Both the position numbers and the translations under genes were made by a program. Shown here one piece after another: positions 1-59,888 of a DNA stretch of 64,000 nt. Source of the stretch: Coptis chinensis (lineage: Eukaryota; Streptophyta; Magnoliopsida; Ranunculales; Ranunculaceae). The notes beneath the pieces are model-generated. The model saw nothing but the letters and a program-made list of their open reading frames with translations. It was not told the DNA's origin and did no database searches. The stretch's first letter is position 1. The number at the start of each line of letters is the position of its first letter. The DNA is taken from NCBI GenBank assembly GCA_015680905.1, contig CM027377.1:37410501-37474500 (forward strand). The letters run 5' to 3'.

Positions 1-3000
1 TAACCATCTCGACCAATGCCAGTTAAGTCAAGTAACCAATCCTCGAATAAGAATAAAACTATAAATATACAAACATCCTAGAAACCCTAATACACTATTT
101 ATACAGTGCAACTAACATACATACATACATCTCCACGTTATAAATACATTCAAATCTCACCGAAGCAAAAAAAAATACATCACAGATGACAGATTACAGA
201 TTGCGCTGAGCACAAATTACACTTGATCTCAGTCACTAACTCATAGTTTTACTATTAAGATTGTGCTAGCAATATCTATATAGATAACTCTATAAATCAA
301 TTAAAAATAAAATAATACATAAATAATAAATAAAACAAAAGCTCTTATCAAATGTCTGCCTCTAATGGAAGAGTTTGTTATGCATATAATGGGGCAATGT
401 CAATATAATTCCAAAAAGCTAATCATATTTAAAACCTCTGAGAAACTTAATTTTGTTTATGTCAATAATATTTTTGTTTCTGTTTTGAATTCATGGAAAA
501 ACACCAAAACTAAAAAGAGAAATATGAGGTGGAGGATTGGCATGATCTTTTTTCTTTGACTAACTGTATACAAAGGCAGAGATCCAAATGTTAGATTACG
601 CAGACTTCTTGTCATAAAAGTGGTTAACAAAACATGGCTGCTTTGTTAACAAACCATCCTAATAAGAACGTATAGTGATGAGATTACATAAAAAAAAAAT
701 CCATCATTTCCTCATAACACCATTCGAGCAGTACATAATAGTGTCTACAAACTTTTTTAAAAAAAAAGTTTTAGGCTAGAGTTCTACCAAAGATCCTAGC
801 AAAGAAGCACCCAACAAACGCCTCGCACCATATTTCCATGCTTGCAAAGTACTTTTAGCTCTCGTCCACCTCTAGTCCAATCTCCACTGGAAAAGTTTTC
901 CCCCTGAAAAGCACACAGAGTTCCTTAAGTATGTTTGCAACATTACCGGAACAATTTAAAAACGAAAAAAGTACAGTCATGAATTGATCATAGACAACCC
1001 AACAATATAATGTCACAACAACAATATAAAACCATGATAAACATTGTTTGAAGGGATTTTAAATGTTCTAAAATATCCACTTTGCTTGACAGCTAGTTTC
1101 TAGTTGAAAACCTGAGTTGGAATTAAATCAATAATAGCAATAACGAAAATAAAGGTGGCAATGCATACCTAATTTTATTTCAACAATTTTTTAATGTGTT
1201 CTTATATGAGTTTAGTAAAAGCCACGGCCTGAAACATAACATAAATGAAGTATAGTTTCAATCAAGCTAACATAAAAGTGTTAGTTATCTCAAAGTACAT
1301 TGGTAAATAAAGGTTTTCTGCGGGATAGTAAATCTGAAAACAAAGAACGAATAGAAAAATAGGTTGTATTTTTTTTAACCAAATGGGGTAACAATACAAA
1401 ATCTACTTAAACAAAAAGGTAAAAATGCCGTCAAACAAGATTACACATAACTTATTCAAAATAGCAAGGCATGCACACACGCTCCGCCACCCAATTTGTC
1501 TTCAAATATGTTATTACTATTAAACAAAGTGCGTGTCTAATGTAATAATTATTGAACTCATCCACAATTCAGAACAATGTTTAAGGAAAAAAGTGCAATG
1601 TGCTCGGTTAATTAGTTAACTACTCGGCATTTCCATCCTTCCAAATGTTGGAAGGAGAAGAAAGATAGTGGGGACGAATTCATAAAGCATTATATAGTCA
1701 AACTAATTACATGCGTGTCACGTAAAATGCCTATAGAAACAATTAAGAAAAAATGTCTTATGATACTCATATAGTTGGCTTCTACTTGCAGGCAAAAATT
1801 CAACTAAATAAATTAAGAAAAAGTCATTCTCCAGTTAGCATTACCCGGCAAACTATTCCTAAGTCACATCATTTTATATGTGCTGTCCACACAATGTATT
1901 GTTGACACAATAAAATGGGAGGGTCGGGAGGGTCTTAGTCTTTAGGGAATCATTATCATTAAAGGAATTCTGGAAAATAGTTGTGGGAAAGCTCATTGGG
2001 GGTGAATGAGACAACTCTAAATTTCCATTTTCTGGCCCCAATCTTGTTCAATCTGATATTCAAAAATCACCTTGAGAGTAATTATGTACTTGCCCCGAAT
2101 TGGAAAAAGCATATACACACATGATATCATAAATAACTATTAATGATTACTACTATACCGCAATCAACAGATAGAATAAAATCAATTTGGAAAAAAGGAA
2201 ATACTTTAAGTAACTTCTTTTGCCAAATTTTAAAAGATCCTAGAAAATTCGAATCCCTTAAGGAAAGTAAACAAATTACCAATTATAACAGTTGTAAAGC
2301 AAGAAAAGAATGTATGTATTCAACACAAATTTAAAAAACACACCTATTTCTATTTTAAGTCATAAACGGATACAAAACCAAAAGAAATGAAGCTACATCC
2401 GGTATAGAAAAAGTAACACTAACCTTTAAATTGGGTGTAATAAACCATATAAGTGGAGGCCATGATTCTCAAGCAACAATAAAACATAAACATTCTTCTA
2501 TTTCGCTCATCACAATTATAGTAGAGTAGAAGAGCATGAACAAAAATAGATGCCTCAACAAAAGTCATATATATGTATATAAACAAAGAGGAAGAAAGCA
2601 TCATGTTAAGTAGTATGATGCAAAGAGCGTTAATAATGAAGATGTAGGTTATAAGGCTTGCATGCACCGTAAGAATGTGTAGGGTTTGTGTGCATAAAAA
2701 AATGAGATGAACAATCTCGTGAGTGAAAAGAACATGAAAGACAAAGTAAGAGCAGATGCATAGCCCTAATAATAATATAAAAAATAACTATTTAACACAT
2801 ATTGCATTTCGAATTTGGTCTTGACCAAAGGGGTTTCAGTTTCGATCCTCATTGTACTCGTCTCAACATATAAAAAAAGGGGGCCAAAGGTCTCGTAAAT
2901 TATTGAGCAAAAAAAGGCAACTCCTCGTGACGAAGGTTTTCTCAACCCCAGAAACCCACCACAAAGGCGGAATCACAAACTTTTGGAGCTTGGTCTCCCT

Positions 3001-5293
3001 TTCCACCCGACTTTCTACACTAATTCAGCACAGGTTTTTGAATGGAGGGGCTTAGTATTTTGACAGTGCAAGGACTCAAGCTATCGGAATAACATTAGAA
3101 CATAGTGTAATGCAAATACAAAGATACTCCTTGAAAATTAACAAAAAAAAAAAGCAATAACGTAATGTGCGGAAAAGAAAGTGTTAAGGATGGGAAAACA
3201 GGTAGGAATTGAAGAGTCATACATGAGAGTAACTTAGAAGAAAACACAGAGGGTGAAAAATGTCTTTCTCTAGAATTGACTGTATCATGGAAAAGTTTAA
3301 GGCTGAGCAATCAACAAAAATGGAACTGCATTCATGAAAGGTTCTTCTCATGTTTGAAACTAAATAAAGGGAAAAAAAATAGGACAAAAAAATAACATAA
3401 CTTACATGAGATTCATTGATCACAGGTGGTGCAAGAGATAGAAACATGCGTACCAAGTACTGGGCGTATTTAAAAAAATAAAGATCCCCAAGAGATGATT
3501 TGAGCAGGCAATGCTAAGCTAACATCAAAAAATAAATGAAATAAGGGAAAGTCTGACACAAAAAAACACAATAGAAAATCTGATTTCTAACGGAAGTATG
3601 AAGAAATATAATAAACAATTTGGAAAAGAACAAATAATGGAAATACATACCCCCTGTTATGCAAAAGCTTGCACTCCAAAATGGGTAATAACATGAATGA
3701 ATTAAAAAGCAATCAATCAGAAATGGGGACTTAAATTTTAACGGTCCTTTTAACCCTCCCCTCTCAGTTTTTATCTAGTTGTTGCCCAGTCGTTCCATCG
3801 TGAAATTGTTTCGCTTTCACATTCATGCATATGGAATCTGGTACATTTTCAATTTGAAAAACCTAACCACCACTCAATGTGCACTTTGTAACAAAATCAT
3901 TTTAGTAGGAACAATAACAATTGATTAAAGTTCAAGCTGAAAATAGAGTTCATGAAATGTCATTAAAAATCAAATTGCAAACCTGAAAGAACTTAATTAC
4001 ACAATCATAACCAAGACAACCTTAAGGTGTTATACACATCCAATTTTCATACAAATATAAGATGGTCCAATGGCTATTTGTTTCAAGAATCCTTCCTATC
4101 AAGAGAACACAAAATTTTCCAGGACTGGAAATTGTACATAAAATAACCCTTGTATTCTCCAATGGTCCTCAAAACCTTTGCCTTTAATTGCCCTATAATC
4201 CTCCCCGTCAATACAAAATATACTTAGATGACGCCTCTATGCTAGAGTTAACACCACTCATTCACTTATGCAATATAAGGGGTATATTTTTGCATTCAAG
4301 CTGCTTGAGGCCATGGTCATTATTCTTCTTTGACAACTGCAGTAGGAAATAGAAAAGAAAAAATGAAATTCAACAACTTCAACATTTAGCACTTGGTAAT
4401 TGACATGAATTTTTTTGCAAAAACAACCCAAGGCAACATTCATAGTGGTCAAAGCATATTATTTATCCCTGTTATGCCAAGTAATGAGTCAAGACAAATC
4501 GATTAAAAGCGAAAGTAGATAATAAATGTATAGGGCAAGAATAAAAAAGCAGGGAAAACCTTGCAAAACATGGTTCATTCAATGTACAAAGATATCTACA
4601 TAAGTAGTACCTTACACACATAAACTTGAAACAGCTAAATAATTGGAGTGTTTTAACCTTGTGCATTAACAAAATAGAAGTTTCAAAATTAGAACTAAAA
4701 AATTTGGAATATCAAGAATTTAAGAGAATCGAGTGTATAACCGAAAAAGAGATAAGAAAGAAATCGAATGGAAGGCTTAAGTAAATAGCGTAAACAATTC
4801 TAGAAGCTAACATTAAAGACATTTAAAGGACTTTGTACAATATGAAATACAAACACATAAGACTTTTACTTCTCAAATGGCACGGATAATACTCTTACAT
4901 GATCACCCATGTGACAAATTTGATCTAGCCAATGCCCAACTAATTTCAAGGTCTTAATGGCTTTCTGGTTAATAAATCGACAATCCACACAAACAAGAGC
5001 TTGCATCAAATAAATCAAAGGAGAACTCTAACCTTGTGCATAACAGATTCAAAAATAAAATAAAAAATCAAAGTTAAAAATTAAATATCCCGAAACTTTG
5101 GAGAAGCATAGGACAAAAACAAACCTAAAAGTAATGACAACTATATGCACCCCGAGCCATTTGTAATAGCAACCACCATATGTGTTTTTACAAACACTAC
5201 TTACGATAGTAGTATGACCTTCACAGCACCATAATAGCCAAGAAATACACCGAAAGAGAGTGAATATACATTTAAATTAAAGAATTCATAAAA

Positions 5294-5294
<1 letters not shown>

Positions 5295-5324
<30 letters not shown>
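5295..5324. repeat. poly(A) tract, 30 bp
   Basis: An uninterrupted A run within AT-rich DNA. It could be the tail of an old retroposed copy, but no LINE or SINE body is recognisable immediately upstream. Confidence 0.9.
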
Positions 5325-5327
<3 letters not shown>

Positions 5328-6368
5328 AGTAAAAAACTAAACCGACAATTGAGTTAATAACTTAATATTGGATATCAAATCTGAAATAAGCTTATAAGTA
5401 AAACTCAAAATCCTCTACTACACAATAGGAAGTATAGATAATTTACCCACCTCCCTTGAAAATACCATATCAAAACAACACAATATCATAAAGATTAAGT
5501 TGGGGATCAATTTCAACACTTACGATTTGAGAGTGTAGTACAACTTTGAGAGTGATGACTGCATAAGAGGAAAGAAAATAGATGCATGTAATTGCTTCAA
5601 GGAGTTATGCTCTTACCTTGAGAACTGGTTCGATATACACATTAATATTGTTGATGACGAACGGAGATTGTGGAGCCTAGAAGGTGGCGACTGTCGTGTT
5701 TTTCATTAATCACCCTAAAAGGTAGTGGTGCTAACTTCATTAAAAGAAGGCGGGGCATATTGAATTATAAGCTTGGTCATAGACGTTCCAAAGTCCTTTA
5801 AAAGCTAAGGTATGTATTCACACTTCTTTTTAGAACTGTACTTCATACATTTTCAGCTTTACCACCAACGGGACACTGTAAGCAAATTGCTTAAAAGCAG
5901 ACATCGTCCTAGAACATCTTAACACGTGCAAATGTTTTTTCTTTATGATGTGCATATAGTAGAGGGCATTAACTCATTTATGCGATGACTTTCAGGTCAT
6001 GAAGGGAAAAAAACATGAAAATACTTCAACGAATTCATCTTTAATGATATTGCTTACTCTAGAACTATAACAGATTAAATGGCCTTTCTCTCCATGAGGA
6101 CATATGACCATCGAAAGTAAGAAACGTATTAAGATAAACCTTCGCAAAAAAGTGTCAATCCATAAAAAGTTCTTCAAACATGTATTTGAGGTTCTTATAT
6201 ATAGAGAGGCACTCGGTAGAAATTATAGTTTCTAAGGTGTCTCAAGTTCACAGAAATCAAGACGTATGAACCTCCATTAACGCCACAGACAAAGAAAACA
6301 TCAAGAAATACTTATGACATTAACCTTACACTACTCAAAGAGAATGAATACGACTCGATCAGGTTTTT

Positions 6369-6384
6369 GTGTGTGTGTGTGTGT
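6369..6384. repeat. (TG)8 microsatellite
   Basis: A short uninterrupted TG dinucleotide run. Confidence 0.9.
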
Positions 6385-8459
6385 GGGGATATATGAGAAT
6401 TAGGATTTTTTTTTTCTTTTATACATATTAGAGCAAGTACAAAGGAAAGACACAACAAATGAAAAATGGGCCATTTGAAACCTAGCACCCTAAACAATGT
6501 AGTCAAGTGACGGGTGATTATTACATCTTCATATTTGATACATCTATTAGGGAGCGTTGATTGGTTACTGAATTGTGGTGGTTTTATTCACACATTCTCC
6601 ATAAAATTTGGGTATGTACGACTGGGTGAATGGTGGTCTCAAAGAGAGATGAGTTCTTGAAAACCCTCCCAGCTGCCGCAAGGCATCTTATCTTCTAGAT
6701 AAATTTCCGTATTATCGTTCTAACATAATTTCAATATTGAGCATGGATGAAAACTATATGACTTTGCATATGGTAACATTATCTATAGTATATTATAGTG
6801 CACAAATCTGTATAGAATAATCTATTATCATAACCTATTAGCCTGTCCACATAACATATAGATGAGCAATTAACTGTTTTACACAAACCAATGGGCCATA
6901 CTATAGCTCCCGACTTTTCTCATAATCATCTAAGAGCTTGTTTTGGCAATTAACATACATTGATACAAAGATTATCGACTATTCAACATTATTTAGTCTT
7001 AAGATTAAAAGCGTAAACATGAGTACATGAACATCTCCAAATTTGGGCAATGCCCGAAAAGAAAAAGAGCATCAAATCGAGCCAGTTCTTTATGTTAAGT
7101 TATTAAGTCATCAATACACAACAACGGTTTGAAAGTATGTAGCTTAAAACAACCCAACGAAAATTACAATGAATTAAAAGGCGACAAATAGGAATAGAAT
7201 CGGGAAATAAAACCAAACGCCGCAAGACTTTTTATCAATATTTCAACTCAATAAAAGCGATCAATCCATGAAAATATTACCTCGAAAGGCAAATATTAAA
7301 CGACCGATATCCTACAAAGCACTGATTATATCAATAGGCGACACTTTTACAGTCCTGCGCACTCATCAATACACATTCCTATTAGAACATTAATCAATAT
7401 AAGAAATAAATCAAAGTAGCGGTGTACACTTTATTTCGGTTTAACAGTTTTAAAATCATAATCAGTTATAAAAGGGAAAAATAGATGGCATTGTATGGAT
7501 TCTGACCCTTCAATACACCAAGCAAATAGTTAACTAACCAAATCAAACAAAATTGTTACATTATAATTATAATACACTGCATAGTTTTTGCAGACTTAAA
7601 CATGTTTCAATCCTAAATATTCCTTTACTCTCCATTTTTGTTTTAATAGAATCATGGAGGTGTGAGAGAGAGATATGATTTTGCCTTTTAATAAATATGA
7701 GTTTCCCTTAAAAAGACAATTTGAAACGAAGAAGAAAGTAGAGGCGTTAATACCGTAAAATTAGACCAATCACAAAGTTTGATTATCACAAAGATGCCTT
7801 GATTAGAGGCACAACACCTTCTTTTAGTCTTCAAACCAACTACACAAAAGACGATAAAAATCAAAGTTTGACACAACCCCATTTCTTAAACAATGAAAAT
7901 AAAGTACGTTACCTTGATTTAAGCTCCATCCATTGATCGAGTAAAATGTAAGAAATCTTTTAACCTTTTTTCAATCTTTTGAATGTTAGTAATAATAAAT
8001 AGGTGGATTAAACAAAATCGGTGGAAGAAGACGGGTGTAAAACCCGAGAGGAGGGAAGTAGCGGTGGGAAAAAAAATAGACTCTTGTTATTTGGAATAAG
8101 AAGAAGACATGTGATTTAATACATGTAAAATTAGATCATACCGAACCCAAAGCTGGATAGATAAGAAATTTTCACGCTAATTGCTTGCTTCTTCACTGAG
8201 GGGTGGGGGAGACTGGGAGAGAGAACGAATGGGTCTTCACAATTATGACTCCTAATTAAACTGAGAGGTGGAGGGAAAGAGAACCCAAGAGGTTTTCACC
8301 ATTAAGTCCCAATTAATTTTTGTAATTTCCGAAAGGTCTTCAGTTTTCCCGATAAATATGTTATAATATGCCAATCCTACACGCCATCCTCACTACTTTT
8401 TGCTAGATGAAACGGAAGGAACGAATATACAACACAATGTATAGAGTGCAGTTACAAAC

Positions 8460-28187: not shown

Positions 28188-28965
28188 TTACAACTTGGTG
28201 AGATCAGTTGTGACTTGTGAGTCCATGGCAGCCGTAAGGTCCTCGCTGGTATCCTTGATAGATGCCACAATCATAGTACAAAATATCCCGATATATCATG
28301 ATATTTGGGAATATTTATTCAGATTTCATAGAAAGATATATAAATATCACGATATGTTCAGAGATATATACAACTACAAATATCGACGATATTTCAATGA
28401 TATTTGCTATATTTGGAGATATTTGGAGATATTTGGCGATATTTTATGTATATAACAATTTTATTTAATATTTACTATTATATTTCAAATAAATATAAAT
28501 AATATATTATGATATATCAAAAAATATCCACAATATCCATGATATTTTGGATATATCCACGATATTTACATGTGAAACAATGTTAAATATCCTCAAAGAG
28601 GGAGATATGTCCACGATACATATCCAGAAATTGAATATTGAAAAAATACCCATATCCTGATATTTTGTACTATGGCCACAATGTCTAGAGTTGGCGATTT
28701 GGCATCTATCACCAAGAACCTAGACTCTGCTGAGTTCTCATCATGCATGTATGTTACCAAGTATCCATCGTGCTTAGTCTCTGTATTTAATGGATCTTTC
28801 GGCACAAAGAACGGCTCTCCTCCAAAGCACCCATTATCGAACATTCTGCAGCCCACTTCTTTTCCTCCTTTCGGCGACCAGTCCAACTTGACAACGCCTG
28901 ATATCTTCGGCATTGGGTCACCTACTGCTGCATAACCGTAATTATTCTTTCTTAGAATATCCTAT
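28188..28965 (-). pseudogene. CCD4 pseudogene fragment (3' end only)
   Basis: The minus-strand sequence matches the last about 120 residues of the intact CCD4 at 57840-59738, from the equivalent of residue about 511. The longer open part (28593-28913) contains GDPMPKISGVVKLDWS and GEPFFVP. The final segment up to the TAA at 28188-28190 is separated by a 403-bp transposon. A one-base deletion and further small indels shift the frame around the final histidine motif. The upstream 500 codons are absent: similarity stops abruptly at about 28965. This is a decayed second CCD4 gene or a partial duplication, and not a functional dioxygenase. Confidence 0.9.
28272..28674. mobile_element. hAT-type MITE inserted in the CCD4 pseudogene
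   Basis: Perfect 16-bp terminal inverted repeats CATAGTACAAAATATC / GATATTTTGTACTATG enclose 403 bp. They are flanked by an 8-bp target duplication GCCACAAT (28264-28271 and 28675-28682). The 8-bp duplication points to the hAT superfamily. The interior is very AT-rich with many repeats of GATATTT/AAATATC and no coding capacity. Comparison with the intact CCD4 shows a single uninterrupted site there. Confidence 0.9.
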
Positions 28966-36795: not shown

Positions 36796-36800
36796 ATCAT
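36796..36800. repeat. Target site duplication of copia C, left copy (ATCAT)
   Basis: It is identical to 47979-47983 on the far side of the element. Confidence 0.85.
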
Positions 36801-37473
36801 TATTGGAGTTATCCCTTACATGAGGAAGAAGGAGAAATCAGCAATGTTTGCGTGAAGAGGTCTGAGCGCGCGCGCTCAGATTGGTTTAAGACCAAGCCGT
36901 GCCCGCGCCCTTGGTACTGGAAAACGAAATAGGTTATTGAGGGCAAGCGCGCTCGACATTGGCCTTGCTGAGAGTGCACCCATGCCCATGCCTATAATTG
37001 CGGTTTCTAATTCGCTATAGTAATTGCGAATTTTGTTTTTGGTATATAAACCTAAAACAAAGTTTTGGAACCACGAGGTAGCCAACACAAGTCAGAGAAA
37101 ACCCAATTCCGAGAGCAATCAATCAAGATTGATCGAAAAAAGCTTGTATCCGAAAACCATCCGTAAAAGGTAAGGAGAGAGGAGTGATCTAGTAAGGTGA
37201 GAGACTGAAGGGAGTGATTGTAATCTTCCTTCTCACTTTATAAAAGGATTAGCTCTTATAAAAGTAGACATCATTGGCCGAACCACTTACATCTTTGTGT
37301 TGTGGTATGTTTGTTCTTCTCTTTACATTATTATTTGTTGTTGATAGTTGTTTAGAGAGTTGGACATGCTAGGTAGGTTGTAGTGGATATTTAGAATTTG
37401 TTTGGAGTAGTAGTTAGTTCAAGTACAAATTATCTGTGTAGTGGGGATCGATTGGTATCATTATTCCCCAACA
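36801..37473 (+). repeat. 5' LTR of copia C
   Basis: It starts TATTGGAGTTATCCC (the 3' copy has TGTTGGAGTTATCCC) and ends CCCCAACA. GC-rich palindromic GAGCGCGCGCGCTC occurs near 36.87 kb. A TATATAAACC box is near 37.04 kb. Confidence 0.9.
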
Positions 37474-37475
37474 AG

Positions 37476-41650: not shown

Positions 41651-41660
41651 GAGGGGGAGA
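41651..41660 (+). other. Polypurine tract of copia C
   Basis: GAGGGGGAGA lies immediately upstream of the 3' LTR, the expected site of plus-strand priming. Confidence 0.85.
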
Positions 41661-41661
41661 T

Positions 41662-42275
41662 TGTTGGAGTTATCCCTCACATGAGGAAGAAGGAGAAATC
41701 AGCAATGTTTGCGTGAAGAGGTTTGAGCGCGCACATGCTCAGATTGGTCTAAGAACAAGGCTCCCCTGCGCCCTTGGTACTGGAAAATGAAATAGGTTGT
41801 TAAGGGCGCGTGCACTCGACATTGGCCTTGCCGAGAGTGCGCCCTCGCCCATGCCTATAATTGTAGTTTCTAATTCGCTACAGTAACCGCGAATTTTGTT
41901 TTTGGTATATAAACCTAAAACAAGGTTTTGGAACCACAAGGCAGCCAACACAAGTAAGAGAAAACCCGATTCTGAGAGCAATCAAGATTGAGAGAAAACC
42001 CTTGCATCCAGAAAAACTTATAAGGAGAGAGGAATGTTCTAGTAAGGTGAGAGACTGAAAGGAGTGATTGTAATATTCCTTCCCAGTTTATAAAAGGATT
42101 AGCTCTTGTGGAAGTAGGCATCATTGGCCGAAGCACGTTACATCTTTGTGTTGTGGTATGCTTGTTATTCTCTTTACATTATTATTTGTTGTTGATAGTT
42201 GTTTAGAGAGTTGGGCATGCTAGGTAAGTTGTAGTGGATATTTAGAATTTGTCTGGAGTAGTACTTAGTTCAAGT
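41662..42275 (+). repeat. 3' LTR of copia C, first part
   Basis: It aligns with 36801 to about 37426. The LTR is interrupted by the CACTA element at 42276 and resumes at 47929-47978. Confidence 0.92.
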
Positions 42276-42380
42276 CACTAGGTGAAAACATAGTTTTTTT
42301 GACTCCTGGTCCGGATAGGAATTGAGTGGTACTAATCCTCAAGAATATATTTGACGGGCTTTTTATGAAATTGACTTTTT

Positions 42381-44435
42381 ATGAAATTGATGGTCCATAA
42401 CCGTCAAACAAAAACTCGACCGCCCACGCTTGTCAAGAAAATTTTCCCCGAAATCCGGCCCAAAGCGCGAATACCTTCCCCCCAAAATTTTAGCTCTTTT
42501 CCAATTTTTCTCTCTTTCGGTTTTTATTTGGTCAAAATCGCAACTCACTGTCATATACAACAAATTCAGCCAAAACTAACAATTTCATCTCTACAACAAC
42601 TTCAAAGAAATAGAGTAGTTATCAGCAAGCTTCAATTTCACCGGTTTGTTTTTATATTCAAAAAAGATGTTATTTTTTCTTTAATTAGTATATTGGATGA
42701 TGCATCTTTCTCATGAAATTTATTGGAGTTGCTGAGGGTTTGTTTATGATATGGGGGTGTATTAAAAAATTATTTTGTGAATATTTCATTGTTGTTGTGA
42801 TGTGAATTATTAAGTGATTGAGGAGTTTTAGTCAGTTCAATTTATTGAATTTGTAAGAAATAAATGATTAAAAATCAAAACAAATTTCAAAGAACTATCA
42901 TTCCGTTGATAAACAATTTGACTGGAGTTTCGCCTACTCTTCTTTTGAATAAGTCTGAACTTAGGCACAATTTCTTTGTAGTTATTTCAATTATTTATGG
43001 CACCTGTAACTCCATGAGCTAATTAATCTGTTACATATGTTGGGTATATCTGTTACTAGCTTTGAGCTTAGAGTGAAATATCATTTTTGTAGTATTTCAA
43101 TCAGTACTTGCTGTATCTTGTAGCAATTAGTAGTTGTTTATTTTTGTAGAAGATTGTACTTGTATGTTGTAGAGGTATAAATTGGTATCATAACCCTTGT
43201 TTTTTTTTTCCCATTCTTGTAATGGGTTGTGTCAAAACTCTAACTTTTTAAATTGGTCGTTTTGCATATACACTACTACAGTTAGCTTTGATGGAATTTT
43301 AGTTAGTTTGCATCTCATAAACTCATAAAGGTTTGTTTTTTTTTTTTGTTTAAAAAGACTTCTTTGTTTTAAGAAATGTAACACATATCATTATCGTTGT
43401 TATTGATATGCTATTGTTATTGCGAATTAATATTGTATAACATTGTGACTTTTTAGTGCTTTATCAAAAATTTTGAGTAAATTATTGTTGTTAAAATTGT
43501 GAGTTTTCACTATTCGTTTTACTGAGTAATGGAAGTTTTCATCCTTTAATTGGATGCACTTCTTGGTGAAGATGTTGGTTTGTCGTGTTGAGGGTGTTGT
43601 CCATCAATTCTAACGATTGTTTTTATAAACTATGTTTTGTTCAACATGGTGAGGGTGTTGGTCTGTTGAAAATGTTATTCGCGTGGTGGTTGTGTCTAAT
43701 GTAGGGGTAGAACTAGGAATTTAGAGTGGGGGCATAAACATAGTAAAAAAAATTAGTTGCGTATCGACTCATGAAATTTCTGATTATATGGCTTTCACTA
43801 CCACTACCACTACCACAAGTTTAATTTAATTAGTATGTTCTTGGTGATGTAATATTACTCGTTTGTGTGTGCGTGCTGCAAGTTGTATTAGTTAGTTAGT
43901 ATGACACCTTATTTGATATGCAAGTGGCATTTGTACTGATAATTAGAATTCATGTTGTTTTTTGTTGGTGGCACTTGTGATATGTGATGTTAATGAAGGC
44001 CATGCAGCCATGTCTTTTGGGTATTTCGCCCTCCCACGTGGGTATGCCTTCATAACAATGTCTAGGTGCACAGGGACCAGAGTGGTCCATCTGCGTAAGT
44101 AGAAACTAGAAGCAGAAAACCCTATAGGAATGAGATCTTGGTATTAAGCTATATTCACCAATGGTTCACTGGTACTTTTGATGTAGCGGTTGTTTTTTAT
44201 TTTGTTATTAGACTTATTTGGACTTGATCCCCTGCTGATTTTTGTAAAAATATGAATTAACTTCACACGAGTCTATTGATCATACGTCATGTACGTAAGT
44301 AAGTATGTATGTTTAGTTCCCTTATATCGGCATGAGATTTGTCTACAAGGTTTTCAGTTTTCATCAAGTGAATGTATAGTTCGTATGTCCTTTCCACTTT
44401 GTTGTAGATCGACAATTAACTGTCCTTAAGAATTT
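42381..44435 (+). other. CACTA D 5' interior, no recognised gene
   Basis: An open frame of 111 codons (42381-42716) begins near the subterminal repeats and ends in T-rich DNA, with no recognised domain. It could be the leader exon of a transcript that starts in the transposon. The rest to about 44.4 kb is intron-like, T-rich DNA with a short CTACCACTACCA repeat near 43.80 kb. Confidence 0.3.
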
Positions 44436-46538
44436 ATGCCTATAATGACTTCTAGGTCGGTCAGGGATCACAATGAAGATGTACGTGAAGTGATTTCTAA
44501 TAAAATTCCTCTTACTACAAGACGAATGTTATTTGCGGGTTCGTTTGTTTGCTTGTGGTCAACTTCCCAAGGTACTTATCAGGTTCGCAACTTTTCCAAA
44601 CTACTAGTTTCCTTTTGGGCCATCTATTAAAATTTTCATCCTTAATAGAAGTAAGAACTTTGAGTGCAATCAATAGCTAATTGTGAAGACTGAGAAATTC
44701 TACTATATACACAACATGCACATGTTTTGCCTGAGGAATGTGGACATGTGCTGAAAACATATAGGCATGTCTCTGAGCACTCTGCCATAATATCAGTTCG
44801 ATACTATGGGTGAAATTCATAGGAGTATTTTTGTAGGAGGATGATTTACCAGACTAACTTTTGAGACAAGTCATAGAAGCTGGGTGACTGGGTCTCAAGG
44901 AGATCCTTACGTGGGTGGGTATGTTCGTCTCAGGCCATGCCTTTCCCTCAAGATGTTGTTTTATCTTGCAAATGTTTACTCATCTTAACATTTTAATTCC
45001 TTTTCTTTTTCGATTTGAAATACAGACTATTTGAGATTTCATAATCTCAATTTTTCAAAACGCATTTTACATATGTGAAATGACGTTATCTGTATCGATG
45101 TCCATTCGTTCATGGAATGATGGAACCTTCTGCAGACTGGCTTGACAACACTGCATTCTCTGTACTGAGAACGTAATTCAGTGTTGATTCAGCCCTGCTA
45201 GACTTCTACTATTGGCTGTAGAAATCCTGTTTTGAGTATTAAGGCTTTGACTTTGGTCGTAGTGAAATTGTATTTATGTTAATGGAGAAATAGTTTGGAG
45301 AAAAGGAGGATACAGCCTAATTAGGTTTGGCCTTGTATCACTTCAATATATATATATGAAAATCAGGATTTACAACAATAGAAACTGCCAAAAATATTCT
45401 GGTCGGGGCCCTAGTCCGCCCCTCGGGAGATGTCCTCCTAGAACTCTAACAGTCACCATTTTCTTAAGTTTGTGTCGAAAGACATGGCGTGAAACATACG
45501 TGATCACTTCTAATTATGTTTGTAAATTTTGAATTACAACACTGGCTTTAGGGGATCCATCTGTGGCAATTGAAGAAGTGACTCCGCCTGTCTATCCATC
45601 CAATGGACTCTTCCTTCATGGGGTTTTTTTTTTCTCAATAATTACTCAGTTCTATCTTTTTCATTTATGGAATGTTTCTTTTTCGTGATTTACTCTGCTA
45701 TATTGGGCTGTGTGTTTATGGTAGGTGAATTTTTATTTCTATATGATAGGGTAGAATTGTCAAACTCTTTGAGACGAATACTTATTCTGTCGTCAACATC
45801 TTCGATGTAACATTACACCATCAATTCAACGTAACAGGTGTTGTCGAGGTACTTTCCACGACTTTCATGTGTATAAAGAAATATTTTACCAGGAATTTAA
45901 ACTGGTTGGACCATAATTTTGCATTAGTAAACCACAACACGCTTCAACTTTTTCCTTAGTAGTTTTCCTCCCGTGTCTTTGCATGATAATAATGTGAATT
46001 ATTGTCTCACTTGGCCCATATTCCAGAAGGTAATGGTTCTGGAGTCGTTTGGGATGAACAGGGGCATATTGTGACTAGTTATCATGGTAATGTTATTCAG
46101 AAAGTACTTAGCTTGGTTTAGTAAAACCAATATACATTTTCCTAATGAGCTATTTTCAAATGGACTATGGTCAACTCAGATGGCAGCTCTTTGTATCATA
46201 GAATGTCGGTATTGGAACTCTCTAAGTTTGTTTTACTTATTCTAATTGTTCTTTCTTGTAGTTGTTGGTAATGCACTTTCTAGAAATCCAAAGACCGGCA
46301 AAGTGGTTGCACGCGTAAATATTCTTGCATCTGAAGGGTGAGTCTTTCGGTAGAATCAGTGACATGATCTGATTGCTGATGTATGCAACTATGATATTCT
46401 TTGGGATAATCTTTATTTAATGGGTGTAAGAGTAGTATCCAGTTTGTCTGATTGTCATCTTTTGTTGGTAGGGTGCAAAAGAACTTTGAGGGTACGTTAA
46501 TTAGTTCAGATTGTGACAAAGATCTTGCTGTCCTGAAG
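44409..46538 (+). pseudogene. Captured DEG8 (chloroplast lumen Deg/HtrA protease) 5' fragment
   Basis: Six exon-like blocks match the N-terminal half of plant DEG8, a thylakoid-lumen serine protease that helps repair photosystem II. About 44409-44571 ends TTRRMLFAGSF...STSQ. From 45552: GDPSVAIEEVTPPVYPSNGL. 45750-45848: RIVKLFETNTYSVVNIFDVT. About 46019-46086: PEGNGSGVVWDEQGHIVTSYH, with the catalytic His. 46262-46337: VVGNALSRNPKTGKVVARVN. 46472-46538: VQKNFEGTLISSDCDKDLAV, with the catalytic Asp. Intron phases mostly agree, but the acceptor before the fourth block looks altered. The catalytic Ser region and PDZ domain are absent: the gene is cut off and followed by CRWN1 sequence. Confidence 0.85.
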
Positions 46539-46817
46539 GTATTTGCAAGTTTATCTAAACTGTTTTTCCCTTTAAATGGGTATACAATTATACATTTCCC
46601 AACACTTCACTTTTTTTTTCCTGTCATTAGACTGGACTACTGGAGTAGCTGTCATATGAGTGTTCATCAACGCTGCCATCTTGTTTACTGCTTTATGAAA
46701 GGTCTATTACATTGGATATTGTTTGAAGTAGTAATTTAGTTGTTATGCTAAGAAACATGCCCCTTGAGAAAGGTTTCTCAGTTTATCTCTCTCTCTGCCT
46801 TGCTTGTCCTTGCAAAG

Positions 46818-47373
46818 GAGAAGGCTCTGCGTGAGATGTGTACTGAAACTGCCGAAACCAAATATAATGCTGATTCAAAGATGGCTAAAGCTAATGCTCT
46901 AATTGTTAACATTGAGGAGAAATCTTTGGAGGTGGAATCAAAGTTGCATGCTGCTGATGCTAAGCTTGCTGAAGCTAGGAGAAAGAGTTCTGAGATGGAG
47001 AGAAACTTGAAAGAGGTTGAAGCGCGTGAAAGTTCACTGCGAAGTGAAAGACAGTCTTTTACAGCAGAGTATGCTTTAACACGTCCACCTACTCATATTT
47101 TTAAATTTTTTCTGTCGATTACTTTGACACGTTTTCCAACTTTTAATTGTTACTATGTTTAGGCGGGGAATGCATGGAGCAACTTTGTCTAAACAAAGAG
47201 AAGAACTGCGAGAGTGGGAAAGAACACTACAGGAGCGAGAAGAGATGCTGAGTGAGGGACGAAGAATCCTCAACCTGAGAGAGGAGGCAAATGAAAGCAA
47301 GCTGAGTATTAAGCGGAAAGAGAAAGATCTTGAAGAGATGCAGAGGAAGATTGAAACCAGTAATGAAATCTAG
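46818..47373 (+). pseudogene. Captured CRWN1/NMCP1 (nuclear lamina-like coiled coil) fragment
   Basis: Two exons (46818-47068 and 47163-47373) with a GT-AG intron encode coiled-coil sequence typical of CRWN/NMCP proteins: [40 protein letters not shown], then ATLSKQREELREWERTLQER and REEANESKLSIKRKEKDLEE. The second ends at a TAG inside the element. CRWN proteins build the plant nucleoskeleton. Only a central segment is present, directly downstream of the DEG8 fragment, so the two genes have been joined inside the CACTA transposon. Confidence 0.85.
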
Positions 47374-47589
47374 TTGGTTTTGCATACACATGAAGATGCA
47401 TGGTTTTGTATATGGAGCATACTAAAACTCATGTAATGTACTTTGCTTCAATATTTTGGTGTTTTGATGAAAGAATCTATTGTATTTTGCTAGAATGTTG
47501 ATTTGAGTTGGACAGTTTAATTTTTGCAGGAAAAATGGATATGAAATTTAGATTAGAAGAATTAAAAAAAAAACATTAATGCTTAGAAA

Positions 47590-47925
47590 AACGACGGATA
47601 TAGACTGTCAAGAAAATTTATGTATACAGAAAATTAACGTAGCAGACCGTCAATAATTTTCAAATTTGCATTCCAAATTTCATTAAAATCATACAAATTT
47701 GACTAGTGAAATAGTAAAGTTTGACGGTTATAGACTGTCAACAATTCTATTTATTATTGACGTTGACCACCCGTAAAATAAATTTAAAGTTATTGACGGT
47801 AACTAACCGTCAAGAAAAAAAACAACTGCAAATTGTTTGGCGGGCCTTGAGACGGGCAATGTCAGTCAAAAACAGTGTTTTTTTATGGGTTTTACCCGTC
47901 AAAAAAATCTTATTTTCACCTAGTG
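47590..47925. repeat. CACTA D 3' subterminal repeats
   Basis: Several copies of a GACGGTnATAGACYGTCAA-like motif, in both orientations, precede the terminal inverted repeat (around 47592, 47645, 47722, 47756, 47796, 47851 and 47894). Confidence 0.7.
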
Positions 47926-47928
47926 AGT

Positions 47929-47978
47929 ATAAATTATCTGTGTAGTGGGGATCGATTGGGTATCGTTATTCCCTAACA
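47929..47978 (+). repeat. 3' LTR of copia C, terminal part
   Basis: It continues the LTR after the CACTA insertion and ends CCCTAACA. ATCAT follows (47979-47983). Confidence 0.88.
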
Positions 47979-57839: not shown

Positions 57840-59738
57840 TTACAGCTTTGTGAGATCAGTGTCCCTCACAAAGAGCCCATGGAAGCCGTAAGGTACCCGC
57901 CGGGGAAGCTTGACTGATGCTACAATGTCTAGAGTTGGTGATTGAGCATCCATCACCAAGAACCTAGACTCCCCTGAATTCTCATCATGCACATACGTTA
58001 CCAAGTACCCGTCGTCCTCTTCCAATTCGTCGGTATTCTGTTGGTCCTTTGTTTTAGGTACAAAGAATGGCTCCCCTCCGTAGCACCCATTACCGAACAT
58101 TCTACAACCTACTTCCCTTCCTCCTCTGATTGACCAATCTAACTTCACTACCCCTGATATTTTTGGCATTGGGTCTCCCACCGCAAGGTAACCATACTTA
58201 TTCTTCCTACCCATGAAGGCCGGGTTGATAACACCAAAATCAAGATTCTTGGTGGATATTGGAGATCTCGTTATCATCCCAGTCTTAAGGTTTATCCTTA
58301 CTTTCTCAACCGACGCATGGATCAGCTCCATCCTCTCTAAGGTGTGCTCTACAGAGAGTATGTTTGGTGCTACAAGCACTATACTATCCTCTTCGTCCCA
58401 GGCATTAATGGCATGGATGATGTTGAATCCTGGCACGTCAAACCATTTCATTTCTGACTCATCGCTTGCGTATCTTGGGATCACACCTATCCTTGGTACC
58501 TTCTTTTTGTCTGCTCCGACCACTGATCCACTACCTCCTAATAGCTCCAATGGATTGGTAGTCATACCTATTTGTATATCTGCGAAAATTGCATGCTTTT
58601 TTGTGATCGCAAAATCATGGATAAATGCTGGGCTTGTCAAGGTGTATATGGGAACGTCTGGCTGCTTTGATCCATTTTCATCAATTCGAAAATAGGTAAG
58701 AAAGGGAGGCATCGGGCTATACCGGAATGCAAAAGTCTCGCCTGTCTGTGCATCTATTTTAGGGTGAGCCGTCATGCTGCTCATGGAAGAGACTTCGCCG
58801 CCAAAATTATGGCGTCTAATTGTCACTATATCGCCATCTGAAGTGACTCGAATTTGATAAGGGAGGTCAGACTCTCCTAAGGCAAAGAGTTTGTCACCAA
58901 TGAAAGCAAGACTTGTGTTGGCTAGACCAATGCCATTGGTTAAATTGAATTGGCCAGACAAGACTCTTGCAGCTGAGAGAGCTCCGCGTGCAGCCATGGC
59001 AGGGAGGCCATTGAATCCAGAGAATACATTTGGAAAAACCGGAGAGCCAGTTTCAGTCTCGATTTTGTATTTATAGGTCTCAACGTAGCGGCTGCAGAGA
59101 GTGGCACGCCCATTTGATATCCTGATGGAGTGCAGCATGCCATCACCATCAAATAGGTGATATGGTCCTTTAGGGAGGTACTGCGGATTCGGTCCATTTC
59201 GGATGTAGGCACCGTCTAGGCACGATGGCAGAGTACCCTCAATCAAGGGACAATCTGTAGGAGGAAGCTCCTCGACGGGAGCAAAGTTGTTTGAGAGTAC
59301 ATGCTTTGGATCGACGGAGGGACGAAGAGGAGGGTCGATAAAGTTGTTCACAATGTCATCCAATGCGCTAAATAACATGGACGTGGTGCTTGTTTGCAGT
59401 GGTGCTGTCCGACGACTCTTCTTAGAATGTTGTGATCGTGCTGGTGCCTTCGTGGACGTTTTTGTTACTGTTGCGGCACTAGGACTACGTCTACCTATGA
59501 CTGTTTGTTGATGCAGTGCTGATGTTGGCTCATTAGTAAGAGTGGTCGAACTTGATTCAGGGTCTTCTTGGGGTTTGTCTTGCTGAATAACAAGAGCGGA
59601 GGAGATGTGGAAGGAAGGGGTAGTAGTGATGTACTTGTGAGGTAGAGAAGGAGATGTTGTATTGAACTTAGATGAAGATCGGATGCATTTTGGGTGGCGG
59701 AATGCGTTTGTGAGAAGGGAAGAGGACATGGCGTCCAT
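57840..59738 (-). CDS. CCD4: Carotenoid cleavage dioxygenase 4 (CCD4), intact single exon
   Basis: A 632-aa protein with no interruption. The N-terminus (about 1-120) is Ser/Thr/Lys/Arg-rich, as for a plastid transit peptide. The seven-bladed propeller starts near EGTLPSCLDGAYIRNGPNPQ (167-186), with HLFDGDGMLHS (194-204). The four Fe(II)-binding histidines are His325 (MTAHPK), His374 (FIHDFA), His442 (IIHAIN) and His620 (GFHGLF). Other family motifs are FGVINPAFMGRKNKYGY and GEPFFVP. CCD4 enzymes sit in plastoglobules and cleave carotenoids at the 9,10 or 9',10' bond (7,8 in some citrus types) to apocarotenoids such as beta-ionone; they control petal, fruit or tuber colour in several species. 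The chosen Met is the first of the frame; a second Met is at residue 4. A decayed relative lies at 28188-28965. Assignment to CCD4 is firm; substrate specificity is not readable. Confidence 0.97.
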   Translation of the reverse strand: MDAMSSSLLTNAFRHPKCIRSSSKFNTTSPSLPHKYITTTPSFHISSALVIQQDKPQEDPESSSTTLTNEPTSALHQQTVIGRRSPSAATVTKTSTKAPARSQHSKKSRRTAPLQTSTTSMLFSALDDIVNNFIDPPLRPSVDPKHVLSNNFAPVEELPPTDCPLIEGTLPSCLDGAYIRNGPNPQYLPKGPYHLFDGDGMLHSIRISNGRATLCSRYVETYKYKIETETGSPVFPNVFSGFNGLPAMAARGALSAARVLSGQFNLTNGIGLANTSLAFIGDKLFALGESDLPYQIRVTSDGDIVTIRRHNFGGEVSSMSSMTAHPKIDAQTGETFAFRYSPMPPFLTYFRIDENGSKQPDVPIYTLTSPAFIHDFAITKKHAIFADIQIGMTTNPLELLGGSGSVVGADKKKVPRIGVIPRYASDESEMKWFDVPGFNIIHAINAWDEEDSIVLVAPNILSVEHTLERMELIHASVEKVRINLKTGMITRSPISTKNLDFGVINPAFMGRKNKYGYLAVGDPMPKISGVVKLDWSIRGGREVGCRMFGNGCYGGEPFFVPKTKDQQNTDELEEDDGYLVTYVHDENSGESRFLVMDAQSPTLDIVASVKLPRRVPYGFHGLFVRDTDLTKL

Positions 59739-59888
59739 TATTGTTACTAGTGGACTAGTGGTAGGACCTAATTAAAGCATTCTTCGAAAGCAGGGAACCT
59801 AGATCCAATTTAACTCCGCCCACACACCTGGCTGGGCAACTATGCTTCTTCAGATGGAAATATGAATTGGTTTGGAACAGATGATAGT

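Follow-up and report, generated by a model that had tools for sequence, protein, structure and literature searches.

A CACTA element of Coptis chinensis with DEG8 and CRWN-type cargo, probably drawn from one chromosomal neighbourhood

The stretch of Coptis chinensis DNA analysed here (the window; 64,000 nucleotides of contig CM027377.1, assembly GCA_015680905.1, forward-strand positions 37,410,501 to 37,474,500) contains, at window positions 42276-47925, a 5650-bp CACTA transposable element that lacks a transposase and carries exons and introns matching DEG8 and a CRWN/NMCP1-type gene. The element is bounded by terminal inverted repeats (TIRs) that are perfect over 13 bp and 86% identical when extended to 29 nt. 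It splits the right long terminal repeat (LTR) of a Ty1-copia retrotransposon, which has gag and reverse transcriptase matches and whose two LTRs, matched at 36799-37474 and 41660-47978, are ~88% identical. The left LTR is uninterrupted at the insertion site and has one AGT only. As this LTR constitutes a paralogous empty site, both the insertion and the duplication of AGT, the target site duplication (TSD), are demonstrated. An earlier note on this DNA, made from the sequence alone, had described perfect ends and subterminal repeats. The perfect ends are borne out; the repeats cluster clearly at the right end and weakly at the left, since the TTGACGG/CCGTCAA motif (at most one mismatch; 10 and 13 matches, respectively, in the 5650 bp) places 11 of its 23 matches in the last 350 bp and just three in the first 130 bp. 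TIRs beginning CACT(A/G), a 3-bp TSD and a transposase-encoding relative, described below, were all found, as is usual for the CACTA superfamily. The two open reading frames of at least 110 aa (stop to stop) within the element gave no Pfam transposase match, one of them having a sub-threshold match to DUF4200, and the whole interior is explained by donor DNA and non-coding family DNA, in keeping with the note's view that the element has no transposase.

Comparison of the element with its own genome assembly (935.6 Mb, 116 contigs) divides it into four blocks, given here in element coordinates: CACTA family DNA at 1-1665, DNA matching DEG8 loci at 1661-4388, DNA matching a CRWN-type gene at 4381-5093, and family DNA again at ~5089-5650. 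The captured DNA thus amounts to ~3.4 kb. Six DEG8 exon blocks followed by two CRWN exons, in one orientation and with their introns kept, are present just as the earlier note had them, with the correction that DEG8-derived DNA already begins at 43936, upstream of the first block recognized. At the left junction, family and donor share CTGAT and diverge immediately after it, the family reading TTTTT and the donor AATTAG, so that CTGAT represents a 5-bp overlap. The middle junction reads CTGTC-AT-ATGAGTG, in which the AT matches neither flank. An 8-bp microhomology at this junction, suggested by the overlap of BLAST ends, was rejected because the bases show a 2-bp filler and no clean homology. 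The right junction has ~2 shared bp (AA), or an imperfect 5 bp.

The genome search that the earlier note had recommended located both donors, introns included, on C8, which upholds the capture of genomic DNA. The DEG8 identity is given by a match of the donor exon translation to PDB 4ic6 (Arabidopsis DEG8; E 4e-62). A search with N-terminal DEG8 exons, in which 36 of 36 candidates were scored, returned 28 matches, accounted for by two chromosomal loci, four element copies and one single-exon match on C5 (59%). The locus at C8:19564308-19555107 has the full exon set; because the C-terminal exons (C8:19557603-19555107) adjoin this locus only, it is taken as the DEG8 gene. The second locus, at C8:19484435-19481712, is truncated: the 20 kb around it hold none of the Ser-exon motifs searched for, and it has a Val in place of the Asp of the gene's DLAVLK. 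We take this Asp, carried by block 6, to be catalytic, and block 4 presumably supplies the catalytic His. The truncated copy lies within a 3.2-kb block that has a 508-bp direct repeat at its flanks (95.1% identity; minus strand, 3920-8093 of the stretch C8:19469001-19489000), and looks like a DEG8 piece inserted by repair of a break, perhaps a staggered one; the flanking duplication resembles patch-mediated break repair. That the truncated copy is itself a product of the element is ruled out, its block exceeding the captured segment by 137 bp and 309 bp.

The captured CRWN piece matches C8:19472920-19472203, around which lie more CRWN exons with long open frames. Judged from these frames, the gene, with an open frame of at least 633 aa, starts ~5 kb beyond the truncated DEG8 copy on the same strand. 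Its name is presumptive, drawn from 41% and 42% identity to two Arabidopsis sequences, and is not taken as far as a particular paralogue; a database search gave no PDB match, and the donor frames gave no Pfam match. The captured CRWN exons have further matches, at 44-63%, to loci on C1 and C6. The DEG8 gene, the truncated DEG8 copy and the CRWN gene are all on one strand of C8, in the order seen in the element. From the truncated copy to the CRWN piece, the captured sequences span 12.2 kb, of which the 8.8 kb between them are absent from the element, and the full DEG8 gene is ~80 kb from the truncated copy. The chance of two captured pieces falling within 90 kb on the same strand is ~1 in ten thousand, by simple arithmetic (90 kb either way over the genome, halved for strand). 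Unlinked donors are ruled out by these positions, and with them the unstated premise of the earlier note that the two genes were separate source loci.

In the CACTA portion of the element, the left 601 bp have at least 53 matches in the genome (40 of 113 candidates scored) and the right 551 bp at least 40 (40 of 55 candidates scored), the latter matches not including the right end of the C8 element copy, which appears in the whole-element comparison. A relative of ~15.7 kb at C7:13859039-13874718 has the same TIRs and GTG/GTG flanks. In the 6 kb read there, it encodes Transposase_21 (PF02992, E 9e-79) just past the capture breakpoint, together with DUF4216 (PF13952, E 1e-12) and a match to PF13963 below its cut-off. 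The transposase occupies the strand that the captured exons occupy in the element. As the element keeps the left 1.66 kb and the right 0.56 kb of the family, the cargo stands, by alignment, in place of the transposase region, with the DNA preceding the transposase gene retained. A 2.85-kb relative (C4:103293539-103296386) has the same TIRs and an ATG/ATG TSD; genome searches with the DEG8 and CRWN exons reported no match in it.

Four copies of the element carry DEG8 DNA, namely the window copy (on C1) and one each on C8, C4 and C3. The copy count proposed in the earlier note therefore yields three more with DEG8 cargo, of which two also retain the join to CRWN. The window copy has all three junctions in common with C8:76827593-76832893 and C4:53863522-53872554. 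Of these junctions, the C3 copy (121194208 onward) has the left one; its match ends at element position 3950, before the middle junction, and its right end was not found in the 8.3 kb examined. Such common junctions point to one capture with amplification afterwards. Both the window copy and the C8 copy (TCA/TCA) have matching TSDs of their own, so the captured unit moved after its assembly. In an unrooted tree of the DEG8 part, the two chromosomal loci group together (100%), apart from the element copies. Of the positions that distinguish these loci, 49 have the state of the truncated copy as the majority among the elements, and 44 that of the gene (p 0.68). Tree and site counts favor neither locus as the DEG8 template, the element appearing equidistant from both. 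With CAG/CTG sites masked, the distance between gene and truncated copy is 0.034, that between the elements and either locus 0.036-0.050, and that among elements 0.016-0.032, which suggests that DEG8 duplication and capture are of similar age and that amplification came later. About 120 bp at window 43043-43162 (element 768-887) are shared by the window and C4 copies and missing in the C8 and C3 copies, which agrees with the grouping of C8 and C3 in the tree. The C4 copy also contains a nested insertion of ~3.4 kb (~3999-7428 of the stretch read) that starts with TC, ends with CTAG after a short palindrome, and sits between A and T, which we take to be Helitron-like.

The coding capacity of the cargo is uneven among the copies. 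None of the six DEG8 blocks of the window copy contains a stop in its native frame, both CRWN exons are open, and an AG acceptor precedes five of the six blocks (the first approximate). At block 4 (46020), the acceptor reads AT, and the next AG, 7 nt downstream, leads to a stop inside the block, so the DEG8-CRWN transcript envisaged in the earlier note is unlikely to arise from this copy in clean coding form. The C4 copy suffers from frame shifts and a stop within block 1, 270 bp of CRWN are missing from the C8 copy, whose CRWN part also contains small indels, and the C3 copy is truncated. Some of the C4 and C8 lesions may be sequencing errors. Judged from this block-by-block reading, no copy looks able to encode the whole fusion. 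Constraint was counted at columns with all six sequences and two states, blocks 5 and 6, absent from C3, being dropped. The element branches have changes at 23/354 exon sites and 106/1841 intron sites, with no sign of exon constraint; the corresponding figures on the donor branches are 7/354 and 68/1841. The window copy has 8/354 exon and 14/1841 intron changes (p 0.017), that is, its exons changed more than its introns, which speaks against constraint. Low-level chimeric RNA is possible, because the captured exons follow, in the same orientation, the DNA found upstream of the transposase gene in the C7 relative. Nothing shows a maintained protein, and the captured exons are probably passengers.

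The element copies differ in another respect, the crowding of changes at CAG/CTG. In the DEG8 part, with the majority state of the remaining sequences as reference, the changes close to CAG/CTG and those elsewhere number 30/369 versus 43/2363 in the C8 copy, 44/364 versus 62/2345 in the C4 copy, and 39/304 versus 61/1988 in the C3 copy, a four- to fivefold difference in frequency. The window copy has 8/364 versus 41/2364, and the chromosomal DEG8 loci have no excess (11/364 versus 101/2351 and 9/366 versus 100/2347). For the CRWN part, measured against the donor, the C4 copy has 38 events near CAG/CTG (132 bases) and 28 elsewhere (577), the C8 copy, which lacks part of the segment, 22 and 21, and the window copy 11 and 20; against a majority reference that includes C4 and C8, the window copy has 20/101 versus 28/589 (p 2e-6). 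The left CACTA segment has a milder excess in all four copies (near and elsewhere: window, 10 in 94 and 40 in 1421; C8, 8 in 100 and 40 in 1559; C3, 6 in 100 and 38 in 1556; C4, 7 in 94 and 44 in 1420). The changes include C-to-T as well as transversions and indels. CHG methylation possibly accounts for both kinds, through deamination or through long-read base-calling errors at methylated sites. By either route, the C8, C4 and C3 copies look silenced and their divergence overstated.

The best reading of the sequences is local capture with an internal skip: a non-autonomous Pack-CACTA element that took DEG8 and CRWN pieces from one C8 neighbourhood and whose exons are passengers, to which we assign a probability of roughly 0.85. 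A CACTA element would have captured the 12.2-kb stretch from the truncated DEG8 copy to CRWN, the middle 8.8 kb being lost or skipped via end joining or template switching, and the product would have been moved by transposase supplied in trans; a transposase-encoding relative, the one on C7, is present in the genome. Several observations weigh against this account. The element is no closer to the truncated copy than to the gene, so that a one-piece capture is unproven. Its CACTA ends have no match in the 20 kb examined at the donor. The flanks of the C4 copy are unlike (CTC/TTA), all DEG8 blocks of the C8 copy are open with AG acceptors, and the exon/intron contrast between element and donor branches, though in the expected direction, is not significant (Fisher p 0.11). 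That same equidistance would suit an alternative in which gap repair with template switching made separate captures from the full DEG8 gene and the CRWN gene, the truncated copy being a bystander. The short overlaps and filler at the junctions (CTGAT left, AT in the middle, ~2 bp right) also recall the gap filling reported for animal Pack-TIRs, where template switching proceeds with microhomology (PMC8277862). Yet the CRWN exons that were captured have a copy of this DEG8 segment 8.8 kb away from them, correctly ordered and oriented, which makes capture of one stretch the simpler account and leaves separate captures doubtful, if worth keeping in mind. The ectopic DEG8 copy and the capture might also be two outcomes of one local burst of break repair, in which a break that CACTA induced near CRWN would have drawn in DEG8 over a distance of 80 kb, one copy ending in the chromosome and one in the element. 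The 508-bp direct duplication and the similar masked divergences (0.034 against 0.036-0.050) raise this thought, which we nevertheless consider unlikely.

Could the fusion have preceded the element, as a deletion allele at the donor locus whose already fused DNA was then taken by CACTA ends? The middle junction is common to all three copies that reach it and resembles end joining, as this order of events would predict, but the 8.8 kb are present at the reference donor locus and the DEG8-exon search, with its 36 candidates all scored, found no fused chromosomal copy outside the elements, so that we rate a prior deletion as quite improbable. Most improbable of all is that the element makes a chimeric transcript whose function is under selection, whether it acts through a protein or through small RNAs that target the source genes. 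The captured exons do lie in sense orientation to DNA that, in the C7 relative, leads up to the transposase gene, the window and C8 copies retain the open blocks and acceptors listed above, and soybean Tgm-Express1 splices captured fragments into chimeric transcripts (PMC1947982). Against these stand the lost acceptor and ensuing stop in the window copy, the lesions of every other copy, and exons that evolve with no visible constraint. Local capture with passenger exons accordingly stays the preferred reading, and its features are collected in Table 1.

Table 1. Parts of the CACTA element and its borders, in window coordinates
Feature	Position	Strand	Basis
Left TSD, AGT	42273..42275	.	single AGT in sister LTR
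Left TIR, CACTAGGTGAAAA	42276..42288	+	sequence comparison of ends
Left CACTA segment, ends with CTGAT overlap	42276..43940	+	relatives match to element position 1665, then diverge
DEG8-derived segment, exons and introns	43936..46653	+	94% identity to two C8 loci
DEG8 exon block 1 (start approximate)	44460..44571	+	
DEG8 exon block 2	45552..45622	+	
DEG8 exon block 3	45750..45848	+	
DEG8 exon block 4; acceptor AT, not AG, in window copy	46020..46086	+	
DEG8 exon block 5	46262..46337	+	
DEG8 exon block 6, carries DLAVLK	46472..46538	+	
2-bp filler AT between DEG8 and CRWN segments	46654..46655	+	base-level reading
CRWN/NMCP1-type segment, two exons	46656..47368	+	95% identity to C8:19472203-19472920
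CRWN exon A, open in window copy	46818..47068	+	
CRWN exon B, open in window copy; cut by right junction	47163..47368	+	
Right CACTA segment with subterminal repeats	47364..47925	+	
Right TIR	47913..47925	-	reverse complement of left TIR
Right TSD, AGT	47926..47928	.	compared with sister LTR

Elsewhere in the window, a long intronless frame at 57840-59771 (minus strand) encodes a carotenoid cleavage dioxygenase (RPE65 family), presumably NCED-like, and a fragment of a similar dioxygenase protein lies 29 kb away at 28593-28961 (minus strand).

Gene capture by CACTA elements is already known in plants, and what the Coptis element adds is that its sources are neighbours. Among the papers that literature searches on CACTA with CRWN1 and on DEG8 in captured transposons brought up, none describes it in its title or the opening lines of its abstract. 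Donors, the parental type of element, an empty site and sister copies are all found within one genome, making this an unusually readable case of capture. An apparent join of two unrelated genes can thus derive from chromosomal neighbours, which favors locally acting models of capture, and the concentration of changes at CAG/CTG gives a hint of methylation that needs nothing beyond the assembled sequence. Like Pack-CACTA and Pack-TYPE elements (PMC8903248, PMC13317346), some of which have several source loci (PMC8903248), the Coptis element is non-autonomous, has CACTA TIRs and captured coding DNA, exists in few copies, and draws on more than one source locus. It departs from them in that its sources are linked, in native order and with 8.8 kb missing between them, and in that the donor of each is identified. 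In the capture model proposed for such elements, two neighbouring insertions mobilize the DNA between them (PMC8903248, PMC13317346), whereas the 20 kb read at the Coptis donor hold no CACTA end. Soybean Tgm-Express1 (PMC1947982) is likewise a 5.7-kb CACTA element with host gene fragments inside and introns kept; its five fragments are unrelated, and it resides within a gene whose promoter drives the chimeric transcripts, in contrast to the LTR that houses the Coptis element. Animal Pack-TIRs, which arise through gap filling or fork switching (PMC8277862), share the microhomology or filler at junctions and the sequence of capture followed by transposition into several copies, but are mostly hAT and Tc/mariner elements with a median capture of 224 bp, as against the ~3.4 kb captured here.

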